From: Mycolicibacterium chubuense NBB4
GTDB lineage: Bacteria; Actinomycetota; Actinomycetes; Mycobacteriales; Mycobacteriaceae
Length of the DNA stretch: 64,000 bases
Assembly: GCF_000266905.1 (NCBI RefSeq)
Contig: NC_018027.1
Span: 4,526,001 to 4,590,000 of the forward strand
Reading direction: 5' to 3'
Shown: positions 3,913-64,000 of the stretch, in pieces
How positions within the stretch are numbered: position 1 is the first letter of the stretch
How the letters are laid out: the number at the start of each line of letters is the position of its first letter
Position numbers and translations under genes: made by a program
Notes under the pieces: generated by a model
The model's input: only the letters and a program-made list of their open reading frames with translations
What the model was told of the DNA's origin: nothing
Database searches by the model: none

Positions 3913-4827
3913 ATGTCCCCAATTGCGACCGAATCGGCCTGGGATCTCTACAGGATTGTTGTCGCGGAGGATACGCACAGCCCAAACTTCCGCGGACGGC
4001 TCGGCACACTACCGCTTCCGCGTACAGCAGCCTTCGAACGAGTCGCCGGTCGCGCCGGAAATGCGATCGTCATCCAAGTCAAGAGCGGTATCGGCATGCG
4101 GGATCACCGCGAGCAGAGCCTCGCGTCGCTGGGCCTCCGAGGCATCGATAGCGCGGCACTGGTTGACATCAATCTCGGATCAACGCGGGGAAACATCGCC
4201 GTCGTGCACGACGCAGTACGCGTTATTACGCTCAAGGAGCCTGCTTGGAAGCAGACGAGGCGGTCACTCCAAACCAGAGGCGGTCGTGTGATGGTGGAGC
4301 ACATTAAGTATGGAAGTTCTCGCCAGCCGGGCGATCTACTTCGGACCGATCGCAAACAGTACTGGTACGCCGAGCTGTCCAGACGCGCCGTCAGCATGGC
4401 ATGGTCCACTTCAAATTCGGCTAGCGACACCATCACGTCCATCCTTGAAAGCTTGGGTCCCGACGATAGCGGGACCGGGCGAATCATTCGCAAGACGCAG
4501 GATGGCGAAGAGATTGGCGAAGGCAGTATCGCCGAAGTCATCGACTCGCTACAAGAGTCGGATGGTGTGACGGTTGAGTATGTACAGGTCTGTCTCGCAG
4601 GACTGTCGATCTCTTGGAAACAACCCTTTAAGCGGTTCGTAGACAGCAGGGAAGATTTGGGTGAAATCGCCGTATCCGTCCCGCGTAACGAGGCACTCCG
4701 TAGCCACGGCGTGCTGACTCGACTAATTGCCAGTACGGCGACAAGCGAGATCAAAGCGATTGACCCGCTCGCACATCTAAAAGGAAGCCGCTCGGTCGGT
4801 TACGGCGCGAGATACCGCAAGGATTGA
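3913..4827 (+). CDS. Protein of unknown function (304 aa), accessory island gene 1
   Basis: I do not recognise this family. The ATG at 3913 is preceded by gaggtg with 5-nt spacing. The product is soluble and mixed alpha/beta in appearance, with no signal peptide or membrane segment. Its middle is basic and aromatic (LRTDRKQYWYAELSRR around residues 143-158), followed by an acidic Ser/Asp stretch and a C-terminal RLIASTATSEIKAIDPLAHL. Codon use is less GC-biased than in the flanking genes, so it was probably acquired. It is the first of three same-strand genes of unknown function bounded on the left by insertion sequences, a setting common for defence or other mobile cargo, but no known defence motif is visible. 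Confidence 0.6.
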   Translation: MSPIATESAWDLYRIVVAEDTHSPNFRGRLGTLPLPRTAAFERVAGRAGNAIVIQVKSGIGMRDHREQSLASLGLRGIDSAALVDINLGSTRGNIAVVHDAVRVITLKEPAWKQTRRSLQTRGGRVMVEHIKYGSSRQPGDLLRTDRKQYWYAELSRRAVSMAWSTSNSASDTITSILESLGPDDSGTGRIIRKTQDGEEIGEGSIAEVIDSLQESDGVTVEYVQVCLAGLSISWKQPFKRFVDSREDLGEIAVSVPRNEALRSHGVLTRLIASTATSEIKAIDPLAHLKGSRSVGYGARYRKD

Positions 4828-4928
4828 TCGCGACACCTCAAAGAGCAGCCCCAAGGCGGCATCGGAGCAGTTCCTCCAGCCGCCACCAAGCGCCATGTCA
4901 AACCCTTTCGAAAGGAAACTTCTCAAGA

Positions 4929-5333
4929 ATGCTCTACTCGCCGTTGGACCGAATTCCCGTGCCAGGCTTGGAAAGCCTGGTAGTCAAGTCACGCCTAAAA
5001 AAGGATATGCAGCTTCGGCGAGACCCTCACCTTCTGGTGAGGCAAGGCATACGGTTCGTCAACTACGAACACTGCGGTTTGGAGATGCGAGCCGTGTCCA
5101 CAATCAATACTGACAGCGCAGCAGGCTATTTCAGTTGCACCGCAGGTGATTTTGATACTGATGGCAGCAGCTGGATTTACGAGAAGACCTCGCCACCTAC
5201 ACGTGCGAAGGAGGAAGCGCGCCTCAAGCACGGCGAAGTGCCCGTATCTGTCTCGATCCAGCTGTTCTGCACTCCGAAGCTGCCTCTCGCTCGGCAATAT
5301 CCATCCGAGCTAGTAGGCCTTCGGTATCCATAA
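4929..5333 (+). CDS. Protein of unknown function (134 aa), accessory island gene 2
   Basis: I chose the ATG at 4929 (MLYSPLDRIPVPG), with aagga 12 nt upstream. The frame is also open back to a TTG at 4824 that overlaps the stop of the previous gene, but that extension is low-complexity Arg/Ser. The product is soluble, with a central RQGIRFVNYEHCGLEMRA, TAGDFDTDGSSWIYEK and a C-terminal VSVSIQLFCTPKLPL. The pattern suggests a small beta-rich domain; no family is recognised. Its place between a larger soluble protein and a membrane protein suggests one transcriptional unit. Confidence 0.55.
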   Translation: MLYSPLDRIPVPGLESLVVKSRLKKDMQLRRDPHLLVRQGIRFVNYEHCGLEMRAVSTINTDSAAGYFSCTAGDFDTDGSSWIYEKTSPPTRAKEEARLKHGEVPVSVSIQLFCTPKLPLARQYPSELVGLRYP

Positions 5334-5344
5334 GCAGTTAAACA

Positions 5345-5809
5345 GTGGAAAAGTCGCGACTCATCGATATCGCTCCCTTTGTGGGTGCGATCGCCGTCCA
5401 GATCCTTACCACACCAATCCAGCTGACGGTTGCATGTAATCTTCGGCGCCAGCACGACAACGTCAAGACCACAGGGTCATCGCCGGAGTCTCTGCCAGCA
5501 AGCATCTATGACCAGTTCATCGTTGATTCGGACTGCATCTCGTCGGTCGCTGCGGGCACGACCTTCGTTGCGTCTGCCGTCGTGACACTTCTTGCCAAGA
5601 CTACATTTGACCCCTTTGCTCTGACCTCGTACATCCTTTTGGGGATCGTCGCTGTCTTTCTCAGCGCATTGATCTATCTTCACTACCGCCGTGCACCCGA
5701 GATCTATGTTCAACGGTCGCCCTGGAAGAACAGGATCGCACCGCTCGCCATGGTCGTTTACGGGGTGAACGCCCTGGGCGTCATCGGTTTCCTGTCGCTG
5801 TCGCCGTAA
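5345..5809 (+). CDS. Small polytopic membrane protein of unknown function (154 aa), island gene 3
   Basis: It starts at GTG 5345, 11 nt after the previous stop. Hydrophobic segments lie at about residues 9-29, 65-84, 91-112 and 130-152, giving three or four membrane helices. A hydrophilic loop with QHDNVKTTGSSPESLPAS lies between the first two, and a short basic YLHYRRAPEIYVQRSPWKNR precedes the last. No transporter motif is recognised. A small membrane protein as the last gene after two unknown soluble proteins is compatible with an effector or anchor role, which is inference only. Confidence 0.6.
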   Translation: MEKSRLIDIAPFVGAIAVQILTTPIQLTVACNLRRQHDNVKTTGSSPESLPASIYDQFIVDSDCISSVAAGTTFVASAVVTLLAKTTFDPFALTSYILLGIVAVFLSALIYLHYRRAPEIYVQRSPWKNRIAPLAMVVYGVNALGVIGFLSLSP

Positions 5810-6485
5810 ATCGTGTGCAAGTAGATCTACACGACGGCGCAAATGCCTCCCGTACACGTCATAGGCCGGACCCCAGTGCCGTCCACTTCGTTTCGTTTGT
5901 GCATCACTGGACCTTTACGCCCCGTAGTGCTTGGTCTGGTGCACCAGGTTTGTAGGAAGCTTTCGCTGATTTAAACAATAACAGGCCTGAAGTTGTGCTC
6001 TTGCCGTAATTTTGACCTGGCGGGAGGCGCGCTGGACAAGGGCCGGTCGTCTTCCTCTGGGCCTATGTCATGGCAGGATCACCGCGTTCCATGCCATCCT
6101 CGGCGCCTGCAAGGGTCACTGCATTGAAAGCCCCTTGGCCCCGAAGCTGCGCGCTGTGGCTATCGCTTACTGCGTACGCTGCGGTCTGACGAACATGTGT
6201 CGGCGCGTTGTCGTGGCTGTCCCTGCAAACTCCTTTCGGGAGTTGAGGGCTTGACCTGTTGGCATTGAGCCGCGCGCCACAACGTAGGGACATGCGTTGG
6301 AGTCGGTGACTCGACCGCTAACGACCAGCTGGACCATCAACAGTGGGGGACGTCCGCACCGAGCCTCCGGAACTCATTTGTCACTGCCCGCGGACGTGCC
6401 TGAGGGGACCTTCGGCACTAATCACCCATGTGGGCGGGCGTTAGCGTCGAAACCGGGAGGCAGAGTTTCCGGGGAGCGGTCCGTC
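5810..6485. other. 676-bp intergenic region
   Basis: Only short overlapping frames without family features or ribosome sites are present. The first part (to about 6000) is still AT-richer and closes the acquired island; GC then rises towards the chromosomal level. The only signal seen is a DosR-box-like sequence at 6404-6420. Confidence 0.4.
6404..6420 (+). promoter_or_regulatory. Possible DosR-type box
   Basis: ggggaccttcggcacta resembles the mycobacterial dormancy-regulator site (GGGACyTNNGNCCC), with one departure in the second half (GCAC for GCCC). It lies about 65 bp upstream of the 6486 start, a plausible activator distance. It is short and was found by eye, so it may be chance. Confidence 0.3.
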
Positions 6486-53483: not shown

Positions 53484-54572
53484 TCACCACATGAGTCCGC
53501 GGATCATCGCCACCGGCGGGATGTCCTCGATCGAGACGAGACCCGCCGGCGCCCGGCACACCCAGTCGATCGCGTTGACCGCCCTCGCCGCCGTCGACAG
53601 ACACCCCGCGTCGGTCACATCCAGCACCGGATGCGACAGCTGGGTGCTCAGCTCGACGCGCGGCTCGCCTTCCACCACCACCTTGTGCACGCCGCTTCGC
53701 CCGTCGGGGGGAAACTCCCACTCCGGCGCTGCCGCGGTGGTGAGCCGGTTGACGTGTTCGACGGTGATGACGGGAACGCCGGCTCGCACACCTTCGACGG
53801 CGAACCGCACCGCAGCGAGCTGCCCGGGTTCGACCGTCGTCATCGTGCACTCGATCCGCTTCTCGGCATACCAGGGCTGGTATCGCTCCCGGATCTCGTC
53901 GAGCTCCGTGTCGAGGTGGCCGGCCACACTGCGCACCAAACCGCCGAAGAGCGACGTGATCACCCCGGGCTGGAAGGCCATCGGCAGGTCGTCAGCCGCA
54001 GTGCTGCCGAAACCCATTGCGGTCCCGGTGTATTCGTAATCGTCGTAGCTGCCGTAGTCGAAGATCTCTTGGACGGTGACCGATTCGGCCCTGCTCACCA
54101 GACTCAGTGCGGCGTGCACGGCGGTGTCCCCTGAGTAGCCCGGGTCGATACCGTTGACGTAGAGCGACGCGGAGCCGGCCGCGCACGCCTGCTCCAGCGG
54201 CACCCGTAACCAGTCATCGGCGTAGCGCGGTGTCACCAGCCACACCATCGATGTTCCGACGACATTGATTCCCGCGCAGAGGAACCGGGACATCTCCTCG
54301 ACTGCCGCCGCAGGCCGGGTCTCCCCGAGGGCGGTGTACACGACACACTCGGGCTTCAGGGCGATCAGCGCGTCGATGTCGTCGGTCGCAATGACACCGG
54401 TCGGCTGAGCCAGCCCGCACAGTTCCGCGGCGTCACGGCCGATCTTGTCGGGGCCCGCGGCGTGCACCCCCACCAACTCCAGGTCCGGGCGGCCGATGAT
54501 CGCCCGCAGCGAATGCCGGCCGACGTTGCCGGTCGCGAATTGCACAACTCTGCGCACCGGCTCATTCAACAC
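53484..54572 (-). CDS. Dihydrodipicolinate-reductase-like NAD(P)-dependent oxidoreductase (362 aa)
   Basis: A Rossmann N-terminus, RVVQFATGNVGRHSLRAII, and ELVGVHAAGPDKIGRDAAEL place it in the DapB-like group common in mycobacteria, whose members of about 350 residues are not true DapB and act on unknown, possibly steroid-related substrates. Other features are CVVYTALGETRPAA and YVNGIDPGYSGDTAVHAAL. The start is uncertain: GTG 54572 fits the family N-terminus; ATG 54626 would run through the palindrome at 54606-54619 and is less likely. Confidence 0.78.
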   Translation of the reverse strand: MLNEPVRRVVQFATGNVGRHSLRAIIGRPDLELVGVHAAGPDKIGRDAAELCGLAQPTGVIATDDIDALIALKPECVVYTALGETRPAAAVEEMSRFLCAGINVVGTSMVWLVTPRYADDWLRVPLEQACAAGSASLYVNGIDPGYSGDTAVHAALSLVSRAESVTVQEIFDYGSYDDYEYTGTAMGFGSTAADDLPMAFQPGVITSLFGGLVRSVAGHLDTELDEIRERYQPWYAEKRIECTMTTVEPGQLAAVRFAVEGVRAGVPVITVEHVNRLTTAAAPEWEFPPDGRSGVHKVVVEGEPRVELSTQLSHPVLDVTDAGCLSTAARAVNAIDWVCRAPAGLVSIEDIPPVAMIRGLMW

Positions 54573-54588
54573 GACCCGAAGTTGCCGA

Positions 54589-54616
54589 TTGACTACTTTT
54601 CTCAACTGACTATAGT
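54589..54616 (+). promoter_or_regulatory. SigA-type promoter, probably leaderless, for the ten-gene membrane/P450 operon
   Basis: TTGACT (54589-54594), a 16-nt spacer and TATAGT (54611-54616) form a near-consensus promoter. The start point would fall at about 54623-54625, on or next to the ATG at 54625, and no ribosome site precedes that ATG. Leaderless transcripts are common in mycobacteria. The -10 hexamer lies inside a perfect 14-bp palindrome. Confidence 0.65.
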
Positions 54617-54619
54617 CAG
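54606..54619. promoter_or_regulatory. 14-bp perfect palindrome over the -10 element (operator candidate)
   Basis: ctgacta-tagtcag covers the -10 hexamer of the promoter at 54589-54616. A repressor bound here would block RNA polymerase. The TetR-family protein encoded at 55400, the second gene of the operon, is the natural candidate. It also lies upstream of the divergent DapB-like gene. Confidence 0.6.
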
Positions 54620-54624
54620 CTTCC

Positions 54625-55356
54625 ATGGATCTGCCCGCCGTGAAGCTGGGCCGCGGTGACCGCCGCGATGTCACGCCGCGCCCGTCGGCCGGCGGACTCG
54701 ACGAACACATGGCGGCCTCACAGCAGGCACAGCGCCGGGCGGATAAGTGGCTGATCTCCGGCAGCCTCCTGATCGGTACCGCAGCCCTCGGTATCTTCGG
54801 GCTTCCACTGTTCCTTCGAGGCGTCTGGCTGCTCCGCACCGCCCAGCGCGACGGGCTCACGGTGCGACCGATGCTGGTCACTCTGCTCGGCTACCTCGTC
54901 ATCATCGACGCCGCGATCAACACCGTCGGCTGGGCCCTCGACCTCGTCGCCAACCACACCATCCTGGCTCGAGTTCTGTTGAACGGCTGGGGAAACATGT
55001 TCGACGCCGGCTACTTCTGGCACTACAACGAACTCTGGCTCGGCGGCGCCGCGGGACCTGGCGAGAAGGCCCTGGAAGTGGGACTGATCCTCACCGTGTT
55101 CACGATGCGCATCGCCGCGGCGATCGGATTCCTGCAGATGAAGCGGTGGGGCCATCAGTGGATGGTCATCACCTGCTGGATGGGCATCGTGATCTGGTGC
55201 ACCTACGTGTTCAACATGACCATGTTCGCCGACGTCCGCTTCGCCGGGGTGGTGCTGCCGGTCGTCGGCTGGTGGCTCTACGACATCTTCTACATCACGC
55301 CGTTCCTCGCGATCCCCTATCTGCACTCGGTGAACCGCGAGATCTTCTCGGATTGA
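54625..55356 (+). CDS. Six-helix membrane protein of unknown family, copy A (243 aa)
   Basis: About six membrane helices occupy residues 42-235. Conserved motifs shared with copy B (58599-59285) are [57 protein letters not shown] and the C-terminal VNREIF. About 75% of some 210 aligned residues are identical by eye. The His, Glu and Tyr in FWHYNELW and the His in WGHQWM could bind a metal or haem, which is inference. No family is recognised. It opens an operon containing NorQ/NorD-type maturation proteins. ATG 54625 coincides with the predicted transcription start; Met29 (54709) is an alternative. Confidence 0.75.
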   Translation: MDLPAVKLGRGDRRDVTPRPSAGGLDEHMAASQQAQRRADKWLISGSLLIGTAALGIFGLPLFLRGVWLLRTAQRDGLTVRPMLVTLLGYLVIIDAAINTVGWALDLVANHTILARVLLNGWGNMFDAGYFWHYNELWLGGAAGPGEKALEVGLILTVFTMRIAAAIGFLQMKRWGHQWMVITCWMGIVIWCTYVFNMTMFADVRFAGVVLPVVGWWLYDIFYITPFLAIPYLHSVNREIFSD

Positions 55357-55365
55357 CGATGACTT

Positions 55366-55387
55366 CACTCAGTGACATCACTCAGTG
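55366..55387 (+). promoter_or_regulatory. Tandem cactcagtg repeats before the TetR gene
   Basis: cactcagtg occurs at 55366-55374 and 55379-55387, each a 4+4 inverted repeat about a central c, with centres 13 bp apart. The pair fills the gap between copy A and the TetR gene and could be an internal operator. The sequence differs from the palindrome at 54606. Confidence 0.4.
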
Positions 55388-55399
55388 CCGGTGCCGGCG

Positions 55400-56011
55400 A
55401 TGACGCCGCATGTGCGACCGTCCTCGCGCGCCCTGCGCCGGATGCAGACGCGCGAACGCATCCTCGGAGCGGCGATCGCCGAGTTCCGGATCGCCGGTAT
55501 GGCCGGCGCCGACGTCAACGCGATCGTGACCGCGGCAGGCGTCGCCCACGGCACGTTCTTCTTCCACTTCCCGAGCAAGGAACACGTGCTCCTCGAGTTG
55601 GAGAGCCGCGAAGAAGCGCGGATGGCGGCGGAATTCACCCGGTTCCTCGACGTGCGGCACGACCTGACGACGGTACTGACCGAGGTGGTCGGGCTGGTGA
55701 CGCGCCTCGAGGAGCGGTTCGGCCCGGTGCTGTTCAAAGAGATTCTGGCCCTGCACTTCTCGCCGACCCGGCCGAACAGGGACGAATGGACCGATCACCC
55801 GCTGATCGTGCTGCTTGTCCGCGAGATCGAACGCGCCCGCGGCGACGGTGCCGGCGACCATCCGGAAGTCGACGCCTTCTACAGTGCTGCGTTCTTCCTG
55901 CTCGGGATCTACGGGGTGCTGACCACCACGACCAACAGCAAGACCCGCGACACGATGCTCGCCCAGCACGTGGCGAGCGTCCGTCGTGGCCTGACGATGA
56001 AGGAGAACTGA
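55400..56011 (+). CDS. TetR-family transcriptional regulator (203 aa)
   Basis: An N-terminal HTH (RMQTRERILGAAIAEFRIAG, GVAHGTFFFHFPSKEHVLLE) is followed by an all-helical ligand domain of about 140 residues. I prefer ATG 55400; a GTG at 55385 would overlap the tandem repeat. It is the second gene of the operon and the likely sensor that controls the palindrome at 54606-54619. The ligand could be the P450 substrate. Confidence 0.88.
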   Translation: MTPHVRPSSRALRRMQTRERILGAAIAEFRIAGMAGADVNAIVTAAGVAHGTFFFHFPSKEHVLLELESREEARMAAEFTRFLDVRHDLTTVLTEVVGLVTRLEERFGPVLFKEILALHFSPTRPNRDEWTDHPLIVLLVREIERARGDGAGDHPEVDAFYSAAFFLLGIYGVLTTTTNSKTRDTMLAQHVASVRRGLTMKEN

Positions 56012-56012
56012 C

Positions 56013-56117
56013 ATGGGCTGGATCTGGGAGATCCTGCGTTACGTCGCCGCCTGGGGCGGAACCGGGCTGATCATCTGGTTCTGGTACTGGATGTTCTCCA
56101 ACCTCGGCACCTTCTGA
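56013..56117 (+). CDS. Very small single-helix membrane protein (34 aa)
   Basis: A 35-codon gene starts 1 nt after the TetR stop, with gagaa upstream; the next gene begins 4 nt after its stop. It encodes MGWIWEILRYVAAW and GLIIWFWYWMFSNL, a Trp-rich single membrane helix. Its place in a compact operon argues that it is real. Small helices of this kind are often structural subunits of membrane enzyme complexes. Confidence 0.65.
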   Translation: MGWIWEILRYVAAWGGTGLIIWFWYWMFSNLGTF

Positions 56118-56121
56118 CCCG

Positions 56122-57651
56122 ATGTCCGACCTCCCGGAAGCACACGCTCTGGCGATCGAGCGCAGCTGCGCGCTGACCGCCGTGGCCCTCAGCGGCCGGC
56201 GTCGGACCGGCGTGCGCCTGGTGACCGGCGCGCGCCGCTGCTTCGGGCTCAGCTCACGACTGGACGTGGTGCACGTCCCGTACCCGGCGCAGCCCGCCTG
56301 GTCTCCGCGAACTCTCACCTGTGGTGTGGCTCTGCAGTGTTCCCCGTCGAAGGAACGGCTCACCGGATACCGCCTCAACGAGCTCTCGACGCGCGAACTG
56401 TGCGCCCTCACCCTTATCGAGTCCGGTGTCGCGCTCGGCTGGATCGCCGACACCTGGCCCGGACTTCTGCGTGAGCTGCACCGATCACTGCCGGCACTAC
56501 GTGCTGCAGCCGCGGACATGGAAGCCGAGGAGATGCTCGACCGGGCGGTCGCCCTCGCGCGCACATCCCAGCCGCTCCCACTCGACCCGTTGCTCGGCGC
56601 GCTGCCGCGGGCCTACACCGAAGCGCAGAGCGCAGCGGACAAGCTGCGCCGCACCTTCGGACGGATGCCGTGGACGAGCACCCAGAAGCGTTTGCCCCGA
56701 CCGTATTCCGTGCCCGTCGGCGGCGACGGCGGGGTGCGCAACCCCAACCTGCCGCCGCCGAGCCGGCCCCACGACAACGACCTGGACATCACCCCCGAGC
56801 ATCGTCCCGGTATCCCGTATCCGGAATGGAACTGCTGGACACAGCGCTTCATGGCCGACCACGTCGCCGTCCTCGAGCGCGCACACGCCGGCCGCGACGC
56901 CGGTCCCGGCGCGGTTGCCGTCGACGTTCGACAATGGTTCGAGCGCAACACTCATCGGACGATGACGAACCGGCTGGAAGACGGCTCGGACCTCGACGTC
57001 GAACAGTACGTGCGCCACTTCATCGACCTCACGACAGGCGAAGGCCACGAGCCGCGCATCTTCCGCGAACTCCTGCCCGCCAGTCGCGACGTCACGACCG
57101 CGCTGCTGCTCGACGGCAGCTCGTCGCTCGGTGTGCACGGTGGACGGATCTTCCGGCTCGAACTGGCTTGCGCCGACGCCCTGTCGCGCGCCATGGCCTC
57201 GGCCCGCGAGCGGCACGGCATCTTCGTGTTCACCGGCAACACCCGCCACCGCGTCGAGGTGACGTGTCTGAAGGACTTTCCGGACCGCCGGTTCGTACCG
57301 CCCGGGAATTCGGGACTGTCCACCGGCGGCTACACCAGGCTGGGCGCCCCATTGCGGCACCTGACCAGCCGCCTGCTCGACCAGCCGTCGGAGCGCCGGT
57401 TGCTCATCGTGATCGGCGACGGCCTGATCTCCGACGAGGGATACGAGGGTCGCTACGCCTGGGCCGACGCCGCGCACGCGGTCGAAGAAGCCGACGACGC
57501 CGGCGTCTGCGTGTATTACGTGGGCGTCGGACCCGCCCGGGTCGATCCACTGCCGGAGGTGTTCGGGCCGAGGCGATCTCAACGCATCCGGCGCGTCGAA
57601 GAACTACCCCGCGTCCTCGCCCACGTCCACCGGGAGTTGGTAGCCGCATGA
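56122..57651 (+). CDS. VWA-domain protein of NorD/CbbO type (509 aa)
   Basis: The C-terminal von Willebrand A domain (about 320-500) has the metal-ion adhesion site DGSSSLG (LLLDGSSSLGVHGG), TGGYTR and IVIGDGLISDEGYEG. The N-terminal ~300 residues are NorD-like helical sequence. Partners of MoxR AAA+ ATPases, these proteins help insert or remodel metal centres (NorD in nitric oxide reductase, CbbO with Rubisco). It is coupled to the ATPase gene by a 4-nt overlap. No nor structural genes lie in the window, so the client should be one of the membrane proteins here. Confidence 0.82.
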   Translation: MSDLPEAHALAIERSCALTAVALSGRRRTGVRLVTGARRCFGLSSRLDVVHVPYPAQPAWSPRTLTCGVALQCSPSKERLTGYRLNELSTRELCALTLIESGVALGWIADTWPGLLRELHRSLPALRAAAADMEAEEMLDRAVALARTSQPLPLDPLLGALPRAYTEAQSAADKLRRTFGRMPWTSTQKRLPRPYSVPVGGDGGVRNPNLPPPSRPHDNDLDITPEHRPGIPYPEWNCWTQRFMADHVAVLERAHAGRDAGPGAVAVDVRQWFERNTHRTMTNRLEDGSDLDVEQYVRHFIDLTTGEGHEPRIFRELLPASRDVTTALLLDGSSSLGVHGGRIFRLELACADALSRAMASARERHGIFVFTGNTRHRVEVTCLKDFPDRRFVPPGNSGLSTGGYTRLGAPLRHLTSRLLDQPSERRLLIVIGDGLISDEGYEGRYAWADAAHAVEEADDAGVCVYYVGVGPARVDPLPEVFGPRRSQRIRRVEELPRVLAHVHRELVAA

Positions 57652-58457
57652 CCGGATCTTTTCAGCCGACCGATACCTATCTCGCCAACGGCAACGAAGT
57701 CCAGCTCTTCGAGCAGGCCTACCGCCGACAGCTGCCCGTGATGCTGACCGGACCCACCGGATGCGGCAAGACGCGCCTGGTCGAGCACATGGGGCTGCTA
57801 TTGGAGCGGCCCGTCGTGACCATCAGCTGCCACGACGACCTGACGTCGTCGGACCTCGTCGGCCGCTTCATCGTGACCGGCGGCGACGTGGTCTGGACGG
57901 ACGGGCCGCTCACCCGGGCCGTCAAGGCCGGAGCGCTCTGCTATCTCGACGAGGTCGTGGAGGCCCGGCACGACTCCCTGGCCGTCCTGCACTCGTTGAC
58001 CGACCACCGCCGCGCCCTCTACCTCGACCGCGCCGGCGAGGTCGTCCATGCGCCCGACACGTTCATGCTCGTCTGCTCGTACAACCCCGCCTATCGCAGC
58101 TCCCTGAAAGAACTCAAGCCGTCGTTCCGCCAACGGTTCGTCACCCTCGCCATGCACTACCTGCCGCCCGACCGGGAGGCCGAGGTGATCCTGGCGGAGG
58201 CCGACGTCGCGTTGCCGACGGCTCAGCGGCTGGTGCGGTGCGCCACCGCGATCCGCAGCGCCGACGAGGCGTTCCACTTCGAACCGCCGTCGACCCGGGT
58301 ACTGGTCACCGCTGCACAGCTGATCGCCGCAGGCGCAGGCGAATTCGAAGCCGCCCAGGCCTGCGTTCTCGCGCCGCTGTCCAGCGACGGCGCCCTCACC
58401 CACGGACTCCGCGAGGTGGCCGCCGCCACCTTCACCGACGCTGACAGCCCGACCTAG
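57648..58457 (+). CDS. MoxR/NorQ-type AAA+ ATPase (269 aa)
   Basis: It has Walker A GPTGCGKTRLVEH (about 31-43), Walker B ALCYLDEVVEARHDS, sensor VCSYNPAYRSSLKELKPSFR and a short C-terminal lid; YLANGNEVQLFEQAYRRQLP is typical of the NirQ/NorQ/CbbQ branch. Hexamers of this family drive activation of a metalloenzyme through the VWA partner encoded just upstream. ATG 57648 overlaps that gene's stop. Confidence 0.9.
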   Translation: MTGSFQPTDTYLANGNEVQLFEQAYRRQLPVMLTGPTGCGKTRLVEHMGLLLERPVVTISCHDDLTSSDLVGRFIVTGGDVVWTDGPLTRAVKAGALCYLDEVVEARHDSLAVLHSLTDHRRALYLDRAGEVVHAPDTFMLVCSYNPAYRSSLKELKPSFRQRFVTLAMHYLPPDREAEVILAEADVALPTAQRLVRCATAIRSADEAFHFEPPSTRVLVTAAQLIAAGAGEFEAAQACVLAPLSSDGALTHGLREVAAATFTDADSPT

Positions 58458-58473
58458 GAAGGAGTCACCCCGC

Positions 58474-58602
58474 GTGGACCAGAAGGAGAAGAACCGCAAG
58501 AAGGCGTTGATCGTCCTGCAGATCGTCATCTACGGCTATCTGCTGGCGATGTTCGGAATCCAGCTCTACATGTCGTTCGCCCGCGGCTGGTGGGATCTGT
58601 GA
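58474..58602 (+). CDS. Very small single-helix membrane protein (42 aa)
   Basis: GTG 58474 has aaggag 10 nt upstream. The product has a charged N-terminus ([10 protein letters not shown]), a single hydrophobic helix ([20 protein letters not shown]) and a SFARGWWDL end. Its stop overlaps the GTG of copy B, so it is translationally coupled. It is not similar to the 34-aa protein except in size and single-helix layout. Confidence 0.7.
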
Positions 58603-59285
58603 CCCTGCCGCAGACCGCGGTCGCACTCGAGGGACACCACGAGGAGTCTCGACTCGCACAGCGCCGCGCCGACAAGTGGATGATCGTCGGCGCCGCCTTG
58701 ATGGGCATGTGGGCACCGGGACTCATCGGCTTCCCCGTGTTCATGCGCGGGGTGTGGCTGCAGCGGCAGGCGCTGCGGGCCGGGCTGTCGGTGCGTCCGA
58801 TGATCGTCACCCTCATCGGATACCTGGTGCTGATCGACGGAATGCTCAACAGCCTCGGCTGGGCGCTCGACCTGGTCGCCAACCACACCCTGATCAACCG
58901 GGTGCTGATGATCGGCTGGGGCAACATGTTCGACGCCGGATACTTCTGGCACTACAACGAACTGTGGATCGGTGGCTCCGCCGGGCCCGGCGAGAAGGCC
59001 TACGTCGCCGGCCTCATCTTCACCGTGTTCTCGATGCGGGTCGCCGCAGCGATCGGCTTCCTGCAGATGAGGCGCTGGGGACACCAGTGGATGATCGTCA
59101 CCTGCTGGATGGGCGTCGTGATCTGGTCTGCCTATGTGTTCAACATGACGATGTTCGCCGACGTGCGTTACGCCGGCGTCGTGTTCCCGGTCATCGGATG
59201 GTGGCTCTACGACATCTTCTACATCACCCCCTTCCTCGCCATTCCTTACCTGCACACCGTCAACCGCGAGATCTTCACCGACTGA
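58599..59285 (+). CDS. Six-helix membrane protein of unknown family, copy B (228 aa)
   Basis: This is the paralogue of copy A, with [66 protein letters not shown] and VNREIF. The second half is the more strongly kept (99 of about 118 positions), with changes mostly conservative. Two copies in one operon could form a heterodimeric membrane core. GTG 58599 overlaps the small-protein stop; GTG 58590 is an alternative. The ends of both copies give the same IPYLHxVNREIFxD tail. Confidence 0.75.
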
Positions 59286-59308
59286 ACGACTTCCGAGGAG
59301 CAACGGAC

Positions 59309-59722
59309 GTGACCACCGCTGAAACCAAGCCCGAAGAACTTCCCCCGGGGACCACCCCCTACTACGCGCGCATGCACACATTGATCAAACGCGGCGTGCT
59401 GGTGTGCCTGGTCGCGCTCGTCATCGAAGGTGCGTTCACGCTGCCGTTCATGGCGATCTACTACGGCTACCCCACGCTGAGCCTCACCCAGATCTGCAGC
59501 GAGTTGCTCAAGGTCCGATACTCCGACGACACGCTGGAATGCAAGGTGCCCTACCCGGCGTTCGGACCGCCCGAAGGCGCCGAGGGCAAGGACACCGCCC
59601 AGGACCAGTGGGGCATCCAGCCCGTGCCGAAGTACCACCGGCTCGGCTTCCGCGAACTGGTTCGCATCCACGACGAACGCATTGCACGCCAAGCCCACCA
59701 CGCTGCCGATCAGCGGCCGTGA
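59309..59722 (+). CDS. One-helix membrane protein of unknown function (137 aa)
   Basis: GTG 59309 has gaggag 8 nt upstream. A cytosolic N-terminus ([15 protein letters not shown]), one membrane helix ([19 protein letters not shown]) and an outside or periplasmic domain of about 90 residues with two Cys ([21 protein letters not shown]), which may form a disulphide, are visible. No family is recognised. Its stop overlaps the P450 GTG. It may be an accessory subunit of the complex with copies A and B. Confidence 0.65.
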
Positions 59723-60945
59723 CCGTGCCGGAATCCGTCGAAACGCATGCGCGGAACTGGGATCTGCGCCACGAGGACTTCAACGACCCGGACCTTCTCT
59801 ACGACGTCTACGCCGAGATGCGGCAATCCTGTCCGATCGCGCACACCGACCGGCCGTTCCTCGCCGACACACCCGACGGCGCATGGGTGGCAACGCGTTA
59901 CGCCGACTGCTACCGCATCGCCCAGGACTGGCAGCACTTCTCCAACAACCCGATACCGGACACCGTCGAGCACGTCGCCGGCGATCTCGTCGTCATGATG
60001 GACCCGCCGCGTCAGCAGAAGCTCCGCAAGGTGCTCAACCCGTACTTCTCGCCGGCGCGGATGAAGGCGCTGCGACCGCAGATCGCGGCCGAAACCGACC
60101 TTTTGATCGACGAGTTCATCGAAAGCGGTTCCGGTGATCTCGCGCAGGTGGCGTGGCGGCAGCCCGGCATCGTCCTGTTCCGATACGTGCTCGGCATGCC
60201 GACCGATGACGTGTCCGTGTGCTTCGACCTGACCGACACCGCGCTCAACGGTGCCACGGAACAGGCGCGCATGACGGCGTGGGGTGAGCTCTACGCGCAC
60301 CTCCACGACACCGTGGCCGCCCGCGCCGGCCGGGCTCCGCGCGACGACATGATCGACGTGCTGCTCAACGCGCGCATCGACGGGGAGAAGTTGCCGTTCA
60401 CCGACGTGGTGTCCAATGCGATGCTGCTCGTCCAGGCCGGACTCGAAACCACGGCCAGTGCAATGTCTTTCGCGTTCCACCACCTGGCGACCCACCCGGC
60501 GGACCGAGACCGGCTCACCGCCGAGCCCGAACTGCTGCCCCGCGCCGTGGAGGAGTTGATCCGCTACGCAGGCTCGATACACGGTCTGCACAGGACGGTG
60601 ATCGAGGACGTCGAACTGAGCGGTCACACCTTCCGCCCCGGTGAGACCGTCGTGGTGAACTTCGCCTCCGCCAACCGCGACGAGAACGTGTTCCCCGACG
60701 CCGACCGCTGCATCCTCGACCGCCGCGAGAACCGCCATCTCGGATTCGGTGCAGGCGTACACAGATGCCTCGGCTCCAACCTCGCGCGGCTGGAGTTCCA
60801 GGTCGCGGTGGAGCGGGTCCTCACCCGCATCCCGGACTACACGCTCGCCCCCGGCCGGCCGGCGACGTTCCACGGCAACTCCATCACCAGGGGATACCGG
60901 GCGATCCCGGTCGTGTTCACGCCCGGCCCGACGAGCGGTGCATGA
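59719..60945 (+). CDS. Cytochrome P450 (408 aa)
   Basis: A soluble class I P450 with I-helix [14 protein letters not shown] (Glu in place of the usual Asp), ExxR in EELIRYAG, and the haem loop [17 protein letters not shown] with the ligand Cys. GTG 59719 lies in the stop of the preceding gene. No ferredoxin or reductase is encoded next to it. Membership in the operon suggests that it acts on the same substrate as the membrane complex, or that its product is the TetR ligand. Confidence 0.92.
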
Positions 60946-60989
60946 TCGTGGGGGGACCACACATGCACTGAGACGGAAGGGGCAGGCGG

Positions 60990-61658
60990 ATGCGCGTCGT
61001 CATCGCGGGCGGACACGGCAAGATCGCACTGATCACCGAGCGGCTGCTGGCCGAACGGGGCGACTCGGTCGCGGGGTTCGTCCGCAACCCCGACCACGCC
61101 CGCGATCTGCAGGCCGCAGGCGCCGAGGCGCTGGTGGTCGACCTGGAGAAGGCCACCGTCGACGAGGTGGCGTCCCACCTGCAGGGCGCAGATGCCGTGC
61201 TGTTCGCCGCCGGCGCGGGCCCGGGTAGCGGGGCGGCGCGCAAGGAGACCGTCGATCGCGACGGCGCGATCCTGCTGGCCGACGCCGCGGAAGCCGCCGG
61301 CGTAGGGCGGTACGTGATGATCTCGTCGATGGGCGCCGACGCGGATGTCTCGGACACCTCCGACGACGCGGCCGACGAGGTGTTCGTCGCCTATCTGCGC
61401 GCGAAGGGCGCCGCCGACGACGACATCCGCTCGCGAGCAGGGCTTTCGGCCACCATCGTGCGGCCGGGCCGGCTCACCGACGACCCCCCGACCGGCCGGG
61501 TGACGATCGCGGCCGGCACGGGCCGCGGCAGCATTCCGCGCGCGGACGTCGCCGCGGTCGTCCTCGCGGTGCTCGACGCTCCGCAGACCGCGGGGCAGAC
61601 CTTCGAACTCATCGGCGGCGACACGGAGATCACCGACGCAGTGGCCTCGCTGCCCTGA
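60990..61658 (+). CDS. NAD(P)-binding SDR-like (atypical, NmrA/YwnB-type) protein (222 aa)
   Basis: Its start MRVVIAGGHGKIALITERLL carries the GxxGxxA/G cofactor loop of atypical SDRs. RYVMISSMGAD and FVAYLRAKGAADDDIR hold Ser and a Tyr-x-x-x-Lys, and ATIVRPGRLTDDPPTG follows. Such proteins reduce flavins or quinones, or act as sensors. It comes 44 nt after the P450 gene and is the last gene of the operon. Confidence 0.85.
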   Translation: MRVVIAGGHGKIALITERLLAERGDSVAGFVRNPDHARDLQAAGAEALVVDLEKATVDEVASHLQGADAVLFAAGAGPGSGAARKETVDRDGAILLADAAEAAGVGRYVMISSMGADADVSDTSDDAADEVFVAYLRAKGAADDDIRSRAGLSATIVRPGRLTDDPPTGRVTIAAGTGRGSIPRADVAAVVLAVLDAPQTAGQTFELIGGDTEITDAVASLP

Positions 61659-61673: not shown

Positions 61674-62111
61674 TCACGAAGGCGCGAACACCGCCTTGAA
61701 GCGGTTCAGCGACTCCTGGATGTCGCCCTTCAGCGCGCCGGCCACGACCATCCCGATCGGCCCGAACAACGCGGGGCCGCCCAGGTGCACATCGAAGGTC
61801 ACCGTCGAGCCGAGTTCTGAGGGCTTGACCTTGCCGATCAGCTTGACCTTCACGCCGCCCTTGCCGTCACCGTTGAGCGTCATCGCCTCCGGCGGCTTGT
61901 AGTGCACCACCGTCCAGCTCACCCGGTTGGGCATGCCCTTGACCTCGACGATCGAGTCCAGGGTCGTGCCCTTCTCGATGGTGTCGGGCAGTTTGGACCG
62001 CCACACGCGGTGAATCGACAGCCATTCCTTGTACCGAGACAGGTCAGACGCGCTCTCCCATGCCCTTTCCGGGGGCAACGGCACGTCGACCGACACCGAC
62101 AACTTGGCCAT
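61674..62111 (-). CDS. SRPBCC protein, Rv0910-like toxin family (145 aa)
   Basis: A START/SRPBCC fold: MAKLSVSVDVPLPPERAWES, WLSIHRVWRSKLPDTIEKGT, VSWTVVHYKPPEAMTLNG and LGGPALFGPIGMVVAGALKG. It matches M. tuberculosis Rv0910, annotated as the toxin of the Rv0909-Rv0910 pair. It follows the Rv0909-like gene after 4 nt. A toxic action is known only from annotation of the relatives and cannot be read from sequence; the fold is a ligand-binding one. Confidence 0.85.
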   Translation of the reverse strand: MAKLSVSVDVPLPPERAWESASDLSRYKEWLSIHRVWRSKLPDTIEKGTTLDSIVEVKGMPNRVSWTVVHYKPPEAMTLNGDGKGGVKVKLIGKVKPSELGSTVTFDVHLGGPALFGPIGMVVAGALKGDIQESLNRFKAVFAPS

Positions 62112-62115
62112 CGGT

Positions 62116-62358
62116 TTACGACGTGGGCGGAGCAGCCGGGGGCTGTTGCTGCGGCGGCACCGGCGGCTGTGCGGGCGGGTTGGCGGCGTTCGCATTGTCG
62201 GCGACGGCCTTCTTCGCGGCGTCCTGCACCTTGTCGACCGTCGATGCGTACTTGCCCTGGGTCTTCTTGTCGACGACGTCGCCCGCCTTGTCGATCACCG
62301 TGTCCACTTTGTCGGCGTTCTTGGAGAGCAAATCTTTGGCCTTGTCCAAAAATCCCAT
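62116..62358 (-). CDS. Rv0909-like antitoxin, DUF-type small helical protein (80 aa)
   Basis: It reads MGFLDKAKDLLSKNADKVDT and KTQGKYASTVDKVQDAAKKA, an amphipathic helical protein of the Rv0909 type. A Pro/Gln-rich tail of about 22 residues (PPAQPPVPPQQQPPAAPP) is added beyond the Rv0909 core as I know it. It lies between the ctpE and Rv0910-like genes, as in M. tuberculosis. Confidence 0.85.
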   Translation of the reverse strand: MGFLDKAKDLLSKNADKVDTVIDKAGDVVDKKTQGKYASTVDKVQDAAKKAVADNANAANPPAQPPVPPQQQPPAAPPTS

Positions 62359-62368
62359 GCGCTCAACC

Positions 62369-64000
62369 CTACCGCTCGCGCTCCCGCCACAGTCGTCGAC
62401 GTTCTCCCAGCACAGCGCCCTGTGCCCACCAGATCACCTCGACGACGCCGGCCCCGAGCAGCCCGAGGCCGAGCGCCATCGAACTCAGTTCGAGATTGGA
62501 CGGGTCCAGCAGGAACAGTTTCCGCAGCGGGGGGAGGCTGAAGATCACCACGTAGGCCAGCGCAGACACCGCGACCAGAGCGACGCGCCACCACTGGTAC
62601 GGACGCGCCACCACGGCGAGTACCCAGATCGCCGAGATCAGCAGCGTGATCAGCGCCGCGGTGGACGCCTGGGTCTGTTCGGCCGCACCGGCCCCGCGCC
62701 CCGGGTAGGCCAGCAGGTAGGAGGCGAAGGTCGCGAGCCCGACGGCAAGCCCCGACGGCAGCGCCGACGTCATCACCCGGCGGACGAAGCCGGAATGGGC
62801 GCGTTCCTTGTTGGGTGCCAGCGACAGGATGAACGCCGGTATGCCGATGGTGAACCAGGCTGCGATCGTGACGTGGATGGGCTGGAACGGGAAGGGCAAC
62901 GGATCGGTGTCGAAGATCTTGGCCGACAGGCCGGCCACTCCGACCAGCACGGCGAGCAGCACCGAGTAGACCGTCTTGGTCAGGAACAGGTTGGAGACGC
63001 GTTCGATGTTGCCGATCACCCGCCGTCCCTCCCCCACCACGTAGGGAAGGGTCGCGAACCTGTTGTCGAGCAGCACGATCTGTGCCACGGCGCGGGAGGC
63101 CGAGCTTCCCGAGCCCATGGCGACCCCGATGTCGGCGTCCTTGAGCGCCAGTACGTCGTTGACACCGTCACCGGTCATCGCGACGGTGTGCCCGCGCGAC
63201 TGCAGCGCGTGGACCATCGCGCGCTTCTGGTCGGGGCGGACCCGTCCGAAGGTCGTGCAATGCTCCAGCGTGTCGGCGAGAGCGTCGGTTCGATCGGGCA
63301 GGTGACGTGCGTCCATCGTCTCGCCGTCGAGACCCAGCGACCCCGCGACCGCCCCGACCGACACCGCGTTGTCGCCCGAGATCACCTTGACGGCGACCTT
63401 CTGCGCGGCGAAGTAGTCCAGGGTGTCGCGGGCGTCGGGCCGCACCCGCTGCTCGAGTACCACCAGCGCGACCGGCGTGACGGTGCCGGGTGCATCGGGG
63501 TGGTCGACCGGCAGATCGGAGGACCCGAGCAGCAGCACGCGGAGGCCCTGCGCACCGATTCGCTCGGCTTCCTCGGCGGCAGGCGACTCCGCGTCGAGCA
63601 GCACGTCGGGCGCTCCGATCACCCAGTTGCCGTGGTCGCCGTACGAGGTGCCGCTCCATTTGGTGGCCGACTTGAACGGCGCGGTGGCGCTGGCCTGCCA
63701 CCCCGGGGGCATCTTGTACGCCTCCGCGATGGCCGCCATGCTGGCATTGGGATGCGGGTCGTCGGCGGCCAACTGCGCCAACACGTTTCCGACGTCGGCG
63801 GCGGTGAGCGGCTTGAGTTCCGCGACGCGCATACCGTTCTCGGTGAGCGTTCCGGTCTTGTCGGCGCACACCACGTCGACCCGGGCCAGCCCCTCGATCG
63901 CGGGCAGCTCGTTGACCAGGCACTGCCGCCGGCCGAGACGGATCACCCCGACCGCGAACGCGATGGAGGTCATCAGCACCAGACCCTCGGGCACCATCGG
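62369..64000 (-). CDS. ctpE: P-type ATPase CtpE-like, C-terminal part (truncated by the window edge)
   Basis: The frame is open to the right edge. It has the phosphorylation motif [32 protein letters not shown] (hinge), a run of C-terminal membrane helices and [19 protein letters not shown]. The order with the two small genes downstream is that of M. tuberculosis Rv0908 (ctpE, a calcium-linked P-type ATPase) - Rv0909 - Rv0910. The first membrane helices and actuator domain lie outside. The following gene begins 10 nt after its stop. Confidence 0.88.

Follow-up and report, generated by a model that had tools for sequence, protein, structure and literature searches.

Two of the described systems closest to the locus analysed here pair an AAA+ ATPase with a VWA protein. 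NorQ and NorD are encoded together with the nitric oxide reductase cNOR (norCBQDEF), and passages of two articles state that NorQD is needed to insert FeB, the non-haem iron of that enzyme (PMC13036017, PMC9976466). The target of CbbQO, according to a passage of the second article, is RuBisCO in its inhibited state (PMC9976466), so the presence of NorQ/NorD-type machinery need not mean that a metal is inserted. We analysed a pair of this type in a window of 64,000 nucleotides from Mycolicibacterium chubuense NBB4 (contig NC_018027.1, positions 4,526,001 to 4,590,000), where ten open reading frames (ORFs) lie on one strand at window positions 54625-61658, with intergenic gaps of -13 to +44 bases. 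In order, they encode a membrane protein (A), a TetR-family regulator, a protein of 34 amino acids (s1), the VWA protein, the MoxR ATPase, a protein of 42 amino acids (s2), a second membrane protein (B), a protein of 137 amino acids (H1), a cytochrome P450 and a protein of the short-chain dehydrogenase/reductase (SDR) type. We propose, with moderate confidence, that the core of this operon encodes a membrane enzyme complex, made up of A, B, s1, s2 and H1, that would act on a hydrophobic substrate and be activated by the NorQ/NorD-type pair. A preliminary description of the window had suggested an undescribed system, and our searches of the open PMC library found no paper on this operon, nor any description of the gene set.

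The seven-gene core and its NorQ/NorD-type pair

Relatives of B were confirmed in 317 stretches of DNA, and the best 80 loci, all close relatives, were kept for gene counts; all carry names of Mycobacterium or its segregate genera, except for one locus from Aldersonia (L082). Gene counts come from tblastn hits of at least 35 bits, filtered for overlap; for the P450, an identity of 60% or more was required. The order A-s1-VWA-MoxR-s2-B-H1 is kept in 77 of the 80 loci; in two of the exceptions (L050 and L098) a contig end truncates the locus, and the third (L081) has all seven genes, with two hits in the region of A. In contrast, a P450 of the window type directly follows H1 in 12 of the 80 loci and the window-type SDR occurs in four, while a TetR gene lies directly after A in 15 and directly before it in 72. 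Therefore, the ten genes consist of a seven-gene core and local genes: the operon of ten genes seen previously stands as a run of same-strand ORFs, but the P450, the SDR and the TetR gene after A do not belong to its core.

A (54625..55356, + strand, as for all ten genes; its start may instead be the ATG at 54709) and B (58590..59285) are 72% identical over 229 residues, close to the earlier estimate of about 75%, and both contain the motifs FWHYNELW and WGHQWM, as had been noted. They are the only two A/B genes of the 6.3 Mb host genome. None of A, B, s1, s2 and H1 has an accepted match in Pfam or NCBIfam. The Pfam matches in the operon are TetR, a weak VWA, AAA_5 with CbbQ_C, P450 and an NAD-binding domain, and NCBIfam contributes nothing further above its cut-offs.

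The hydrophobic s1 (56013..56117), which ends in LGTF, recurs in 79 of the 80 loci at 76-94% identity, and s2 (58474..58602) recurs in all 80 at 67-100% identity. The numbers of variable sites at the first, second and third codon positions are 12, 8 and 30 for s1 (69 sequences) and 22, 13 and 38 for s2 (78 sequences), and this concentration at third positions shows that s1 and s2 are genuine protein-coding genes. A hydropathy scan of the window proteins found one membrane segment in s2, one in H1 (59309..59722; residues 30-48) and none in s1, although s1 relatives from other cassettes do score as a helix. The characterization of both small proteins as single-helix holds for s2 but not, by hydropathy, for the s1 of the window, and H1 is a one-helix protein as described, with a conserved C-terminal part.

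The MoxR protein (57648..58457) scores above the curated cut-offs for AAA_5 (PF07728; 121.8 bits, cut-off 22) and CbbQ_C (PF08406; 71.9 bits, cut-off 20.6), and has a Walker A motif, GPTGCGKT, at residue 35 and a Walker B motif, LCYLDE, at residue 97. It aligns with the solved NorQ at an E-value of 1.1e-76, with two CbbQ proteins at 5.6e-68 and 1.1e-63, and with the AAA domains of midasin at 2e-68. Midasin/Rea1 is a very long eukaryotic ribosome-assembly protein, and its likeness to MoxR is restricted to the ATPase domain. The C-terminal part of the VWA protein (56122..57651) aligns with the solved NorD over residues 222-509 (E 2e-31); its N-terminal part gave no alignment with NorD. Its Pfam VWA score of 20.7 bits is below the cut-off of 23.8, and the MIDAS motif DxSxS-T-D is complete (DGSSS at 331, T405 and D433). 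Judged by these alignments and motifs, the two proteins are direct homologues of NorQ and NorD, in agreement with the initial assignment.

In terms of gene content, the locus resembles norCBQDEF in having homologous AAA+ and VWA proteins, with their Walker and MIDAS motifs, encoded with membrane proteins. It differs in that the membrane proteins are A/B, s1, s2 and H1; the Pfam and NCBIfam scans found neither NorB nor NorC among the ten gene products. With the CbbQ/CbbO activase it shares the ATPase type (PDB entries 5c3c and 6l1q were matched) and the AAA+/VWA pairing, whereas the RuBisCO on which that activase acts is a soluble target.

Distribution and duplication of the A/B genes

A/B matches are present in 82 of 148 genomes of the genus, of which 80 are close. 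A cognate VWA protein, defined by a best E-value below 1e-200, is encoded in 80 of the 148, and these are the same 80 genomes as those with close A/B genes. The remaining two genomes (G397 and G1163) have weaker, distant A/B matches only, and their VWA proteins are generic; in the 66 genomes without A/B the best VWA match is no better than 1.7e-28. The preliminary description had considered that A/B homologues might never occur together with the ATPase and VWA genes. The close forms occur with them in 80 of 80 genomes, although distant relatives without NorQD exist. Class-wide, A/B matches were found in 24 of 394 genomes; at the level of the phylum, nine of 396 genomes searched with a profile had a match, one of them (G558) belonging to another class.

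Six extra A/B copies were examined in five genomes (L120 in G298, L121 in G258, L170 in G1000, L185 and L186 in G1199, L188 in G394); further genomes have at least three matches. No VWA or MoxR gene lies beside any of the six in the fetched stretches, and a cognate VWA is encoded elsewhere in all five genomes. Five of the copies are embedded in a complete s1-s2-A/B-H1 cassette and L170 consists of s2-A/B-H1, showing that the cassette behaves as a unit.

In the more distant loci L112-L115, L167, L171 and L184, genes resembling s1, s2 and H1 were assigned by position, length, hydropathy and motif reading, except for H1 hits with significant similarity (37%) in L113 and L114. L115 and L167 have A/B, VWA and MoxR by similarity, together with separate small genes reading like s2, s1 and H1; one of those in L167 ends in a way that reads similar to the LGTF of s1. 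The other five loci encode a two-helix protein reading like a fusion of s1 and H1, accompanied in four of them by an s2-like gene (none was found in L114), and no VWA or MoxR match lies beside A/B in any of the five. The distant A/B in L113 (8732-10690) and L114 (9934-11498) is followed by a short gene for an AAA ATPase of a class other than NorQ, possibly a second kind of activator, and in L113 a gene for a Rieske protein comes next. The best VWA matches in G012 (E 1.4e-17) and G069 (E 4.8e-26) are generic. Since several distant relatives have no NorQD, the pair is tied to the close branch, L115 and L167 rather than to every relative. L171 is part of the Mycobacterium branderi plasmid pJCM12687 (864 kb; positions 176381-201043), where the distant cassette is flanked by a VapC gene on one side and a set of catabolic genes on the other.

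The phylogeny obtained places A and B in separate clades of 25 rows each, with support values of 98/91 and 100/100, respectively. Single-copy forms from G031, G1030 and the Frankia-like G324 and G268 fall outside both clades; this label reflects the near identity of P0107 (Frankia sp. CNm7) to the G324 protein. The fork joining A and B has a support of 94/78, under the strict mark, and the distant branches are long and unsure in their placement. A single duplication followed by joint retention of A and B suggests that the two proteins act as a heteromer. The two A/B copies of one genome (G418, contig C62) share the position of a break, and the fragments from their C-terminal ends have identical scores, a pattern that points to gene conversion or to a misassembly.

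Predicted fold of A and B and proposed function

The six helices attributed to A and B are those of the AlphaFold model of B, and the same arrangement is expected for A; the hydropathy scan supports fewer, with five segments in A and four in B. The best structural match of the model is the emopamil-binding protein EBP, known in humans as a sterol delta8-delta7 isomerase, at 5-8% identity in structural alignments, and A/B probably has the EXPERA (EBP/sigma-2 receptor) fold. While it is correct that A and B match no accepted Pfam or NCBIfam family, they would thus not be without relatives. Neither protein reached the gathering score of the EXPERA family (PF05241; 25.7 bits), nor did any of ten members scanned singly; a weak hit was seen in 11 of the 80 members (best E 7.9e-4). 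EXPERA is a sterol-linked family. A/B differs from EBP in having an extra N-terminal helix, small partner genes, the NorQD pair and two paralogous subunits, and from the sigma-2 receptor/TMEM97 in that the latter is eukaryotic and its match spans model residues 67-228 only. Mycobacterial PF05241 proteins, which come from related bacteria and possibly belong to the same superfamily, occur in seven of 61 relative genomes but not in that of the window, and their hhalign comparison with A/B is weak. A passage on a Mycobacterium genomic island mentions EBP-like proteins, and the passage itself does not contain this gene set (PMC4818103).

Residue conservation was examined in 135 sequences, 40 close and 95 distant. 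G39, D115, G129, E135, R193, P219 and L221 are invariant, and the nearly invariant positions include D83, N87, W91, D94, N123 and K136. D83, N87 and D94 fall on one face of an ideal helix and, with E135, lie in model helices that would correspond to transmembrane helices TM2 and TM3 of EBP. Charge counts weakly suggest that both ends are inside and that the D115 loop is outside, which would match the linker helix of EBP, described in a published article as opening to the lumen (PMC6549186).

In the reading that we prefer, A and B would each be a six-helix subunit with an EXPERA-like fold; the two would probably pair in the way that EBP pairs with itself, and would be joined by s1, s2 and H1. 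A sterol- or lipid-like hydrophobic substrate would be held in an intramembrane pocket lined by D83, N87 and D94, with D115, E135 and R193 at its mouth, and the complex would carry out a single catabolic step. With energy from ATP, the NorQ/NorD-type pair in the cytosol would remodel this complex during assembly so that it becomes active: the pair might fit a cofactor, just as NorQD provides nitric oxide reductase with its iron, or might open the complex. Genes flanking several cassettes encode acyl-CoA dehydrogenase, AMP-binding ligase, enoyl-CoA hydratase, SDR, amidohydrolase, luciferase-like and FMO-like proteins, acyl-CoA reductase and P450s. These examples were chosen by hand from genomes in which genes of this kind are frequent, and the flanks therefore only suggest a catabolic setting; our own ORF calls (third-position G+C rule) include overlong or false ORFs and were excluded from all counts. 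Mycobacteria are known to break down sterols and other greasy compounds. If this reading is right, the complex adds a new client to the known MoxR/VWA targets and links that machinery to a fold of human sterol metabolism. The core also provides a defined and recurring set of small membrane proteins suited to expression and testing, with which one can ask whether NorQ/NorD-type pairs always insert metal or generally activate membrane complexes.

It is possible, if somewhat unlikely, that A/B is instead a metal-dependent membrane oxidoreductase or oxygenase, in which NorQD inserts a non-haem metal, bound by the conserved acids and the 98/99 histidine, and to which quinol, a Rieske or other ferredoxin, or a P450 partner supplies electrons. 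The role of NorQD in inserting FeB, as stated in the passages cited above (PMC13036017, PMC9976466), the conservation of D83, D94, D115, E135 and a histidine at 98 or 99, and the oxygenase and dehydrogenase genes near several cassettes, including the Rieske gene of L113 and the P450s, are consistent with such an enzyme. However, the lone conserved histidine shifts by one column between groups, being at 99 in 39 of the 40 close members and at 98 in 92 of the 95 distant ones. The proposal that FWHYNELW and WGHQWM hold a metal is not borne out, as their histidines are not kept: residue 121 is histidine in all 40 close members, but histidine is not among its five commonest residues in the distant members, and residue 165 is histidine in 37 of 40 close and two of 95 distant members. 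MoxR/VWA pairs also act in other ways, as CbbQO does on inhibited RuBisCO, and NorQD is missing in some distant relatives. No redox partner gene is conserved with the core, which makes the membrane redox enzyme of the preliminary description a guess, and we know of no metal site in EXPERA proteins. A fuller version, which appears doubtful, would be a membrane metalloenzyme of a new class, in which an EXPERA-fold heterodimer and three single-helix subunits activate sterol-, terpene- or alkane-like molecules at a non-haem metal site rich in carboxylates, and a dedicated NorQ/NorD pair loads that site. If true, neither its metal site nor its role as an AAA+ client would have a precedent in the EBP/sigma-2 receptor superfamily.

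Rather unlikely, too, is a metal-free acid-base isomerase, hydratase or cyclase like EBP, which NorQD merely assembles or frees. EBP is the best fold match, catalysis through its His76, Glu80 and Glu122 has been proposed (PMC6549186), and the intramembrane acids of A/B, which may or may not be equivalent to these residues, are conserved. A simple isomerase, however, hardly seems to warrant the expense of an activator that consumes ATP. To our knowledge, EBP has neither an ATPase nor small subunits. We consider it distinctly improbable that A/B is a non-enzymatic complex for lipid binding, sensing or transport like the sigma-2 receptor/TMEM97, for which we know of no ATPase partner, with NorQD as assembly chaperone, since the invariant charged residues suggest chemistry and several copies lie among catabolic genes. 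A different client for NorQD within the region, such as a P450, with the proximity to A/B being due to chance, is strongly disfavoured, because, even though P450 genes are often nearby, the window-type P450 follows H1 far less often than the core is intact and the close A/B and VWA genes share all 80 genomes.

Accessory genes and neighbouring regions

The accessory genes of the operon encode the TetR-family regulator (55385..56011; PF00440, E 9.8e-11), the cytochrome P450 (59725..60945; PF00067, E 1.8e-32) and the SDR-like NAD(P)-binding protein (60990..61658; PF13460, E 1.3e-44). Upstream, a divergent ORF on the minus strand (53484..54881 as listed, its true start probably being internal) encodes a DapB/DAP_DH-like dehydrogenase (PF19328, E 1.1e-11), and several other loci also encode relatives of this protein close to the operon, in some cases more than one. 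A second MoxR/VWA pair is found downstream of H1 in the Aldersonia locus and in a strain of M. asiaticum (L110), at 50% and 29% identity to the window pair.

Downstream of the operon, three genes on the minus strand (61674-63997) look, by reading rather than by family scan, like those for an SRPBCC protein, a small antitoxin-like protein and a P-type ATPase. We take this stretch to resemble Rv0910-Rv0909-ctpE of M. tuberculosis, in which case the operon would sit at a variable site. The G+C content at 4001-6000 of the window is 0.56, compared with about 0.68 across most of it.
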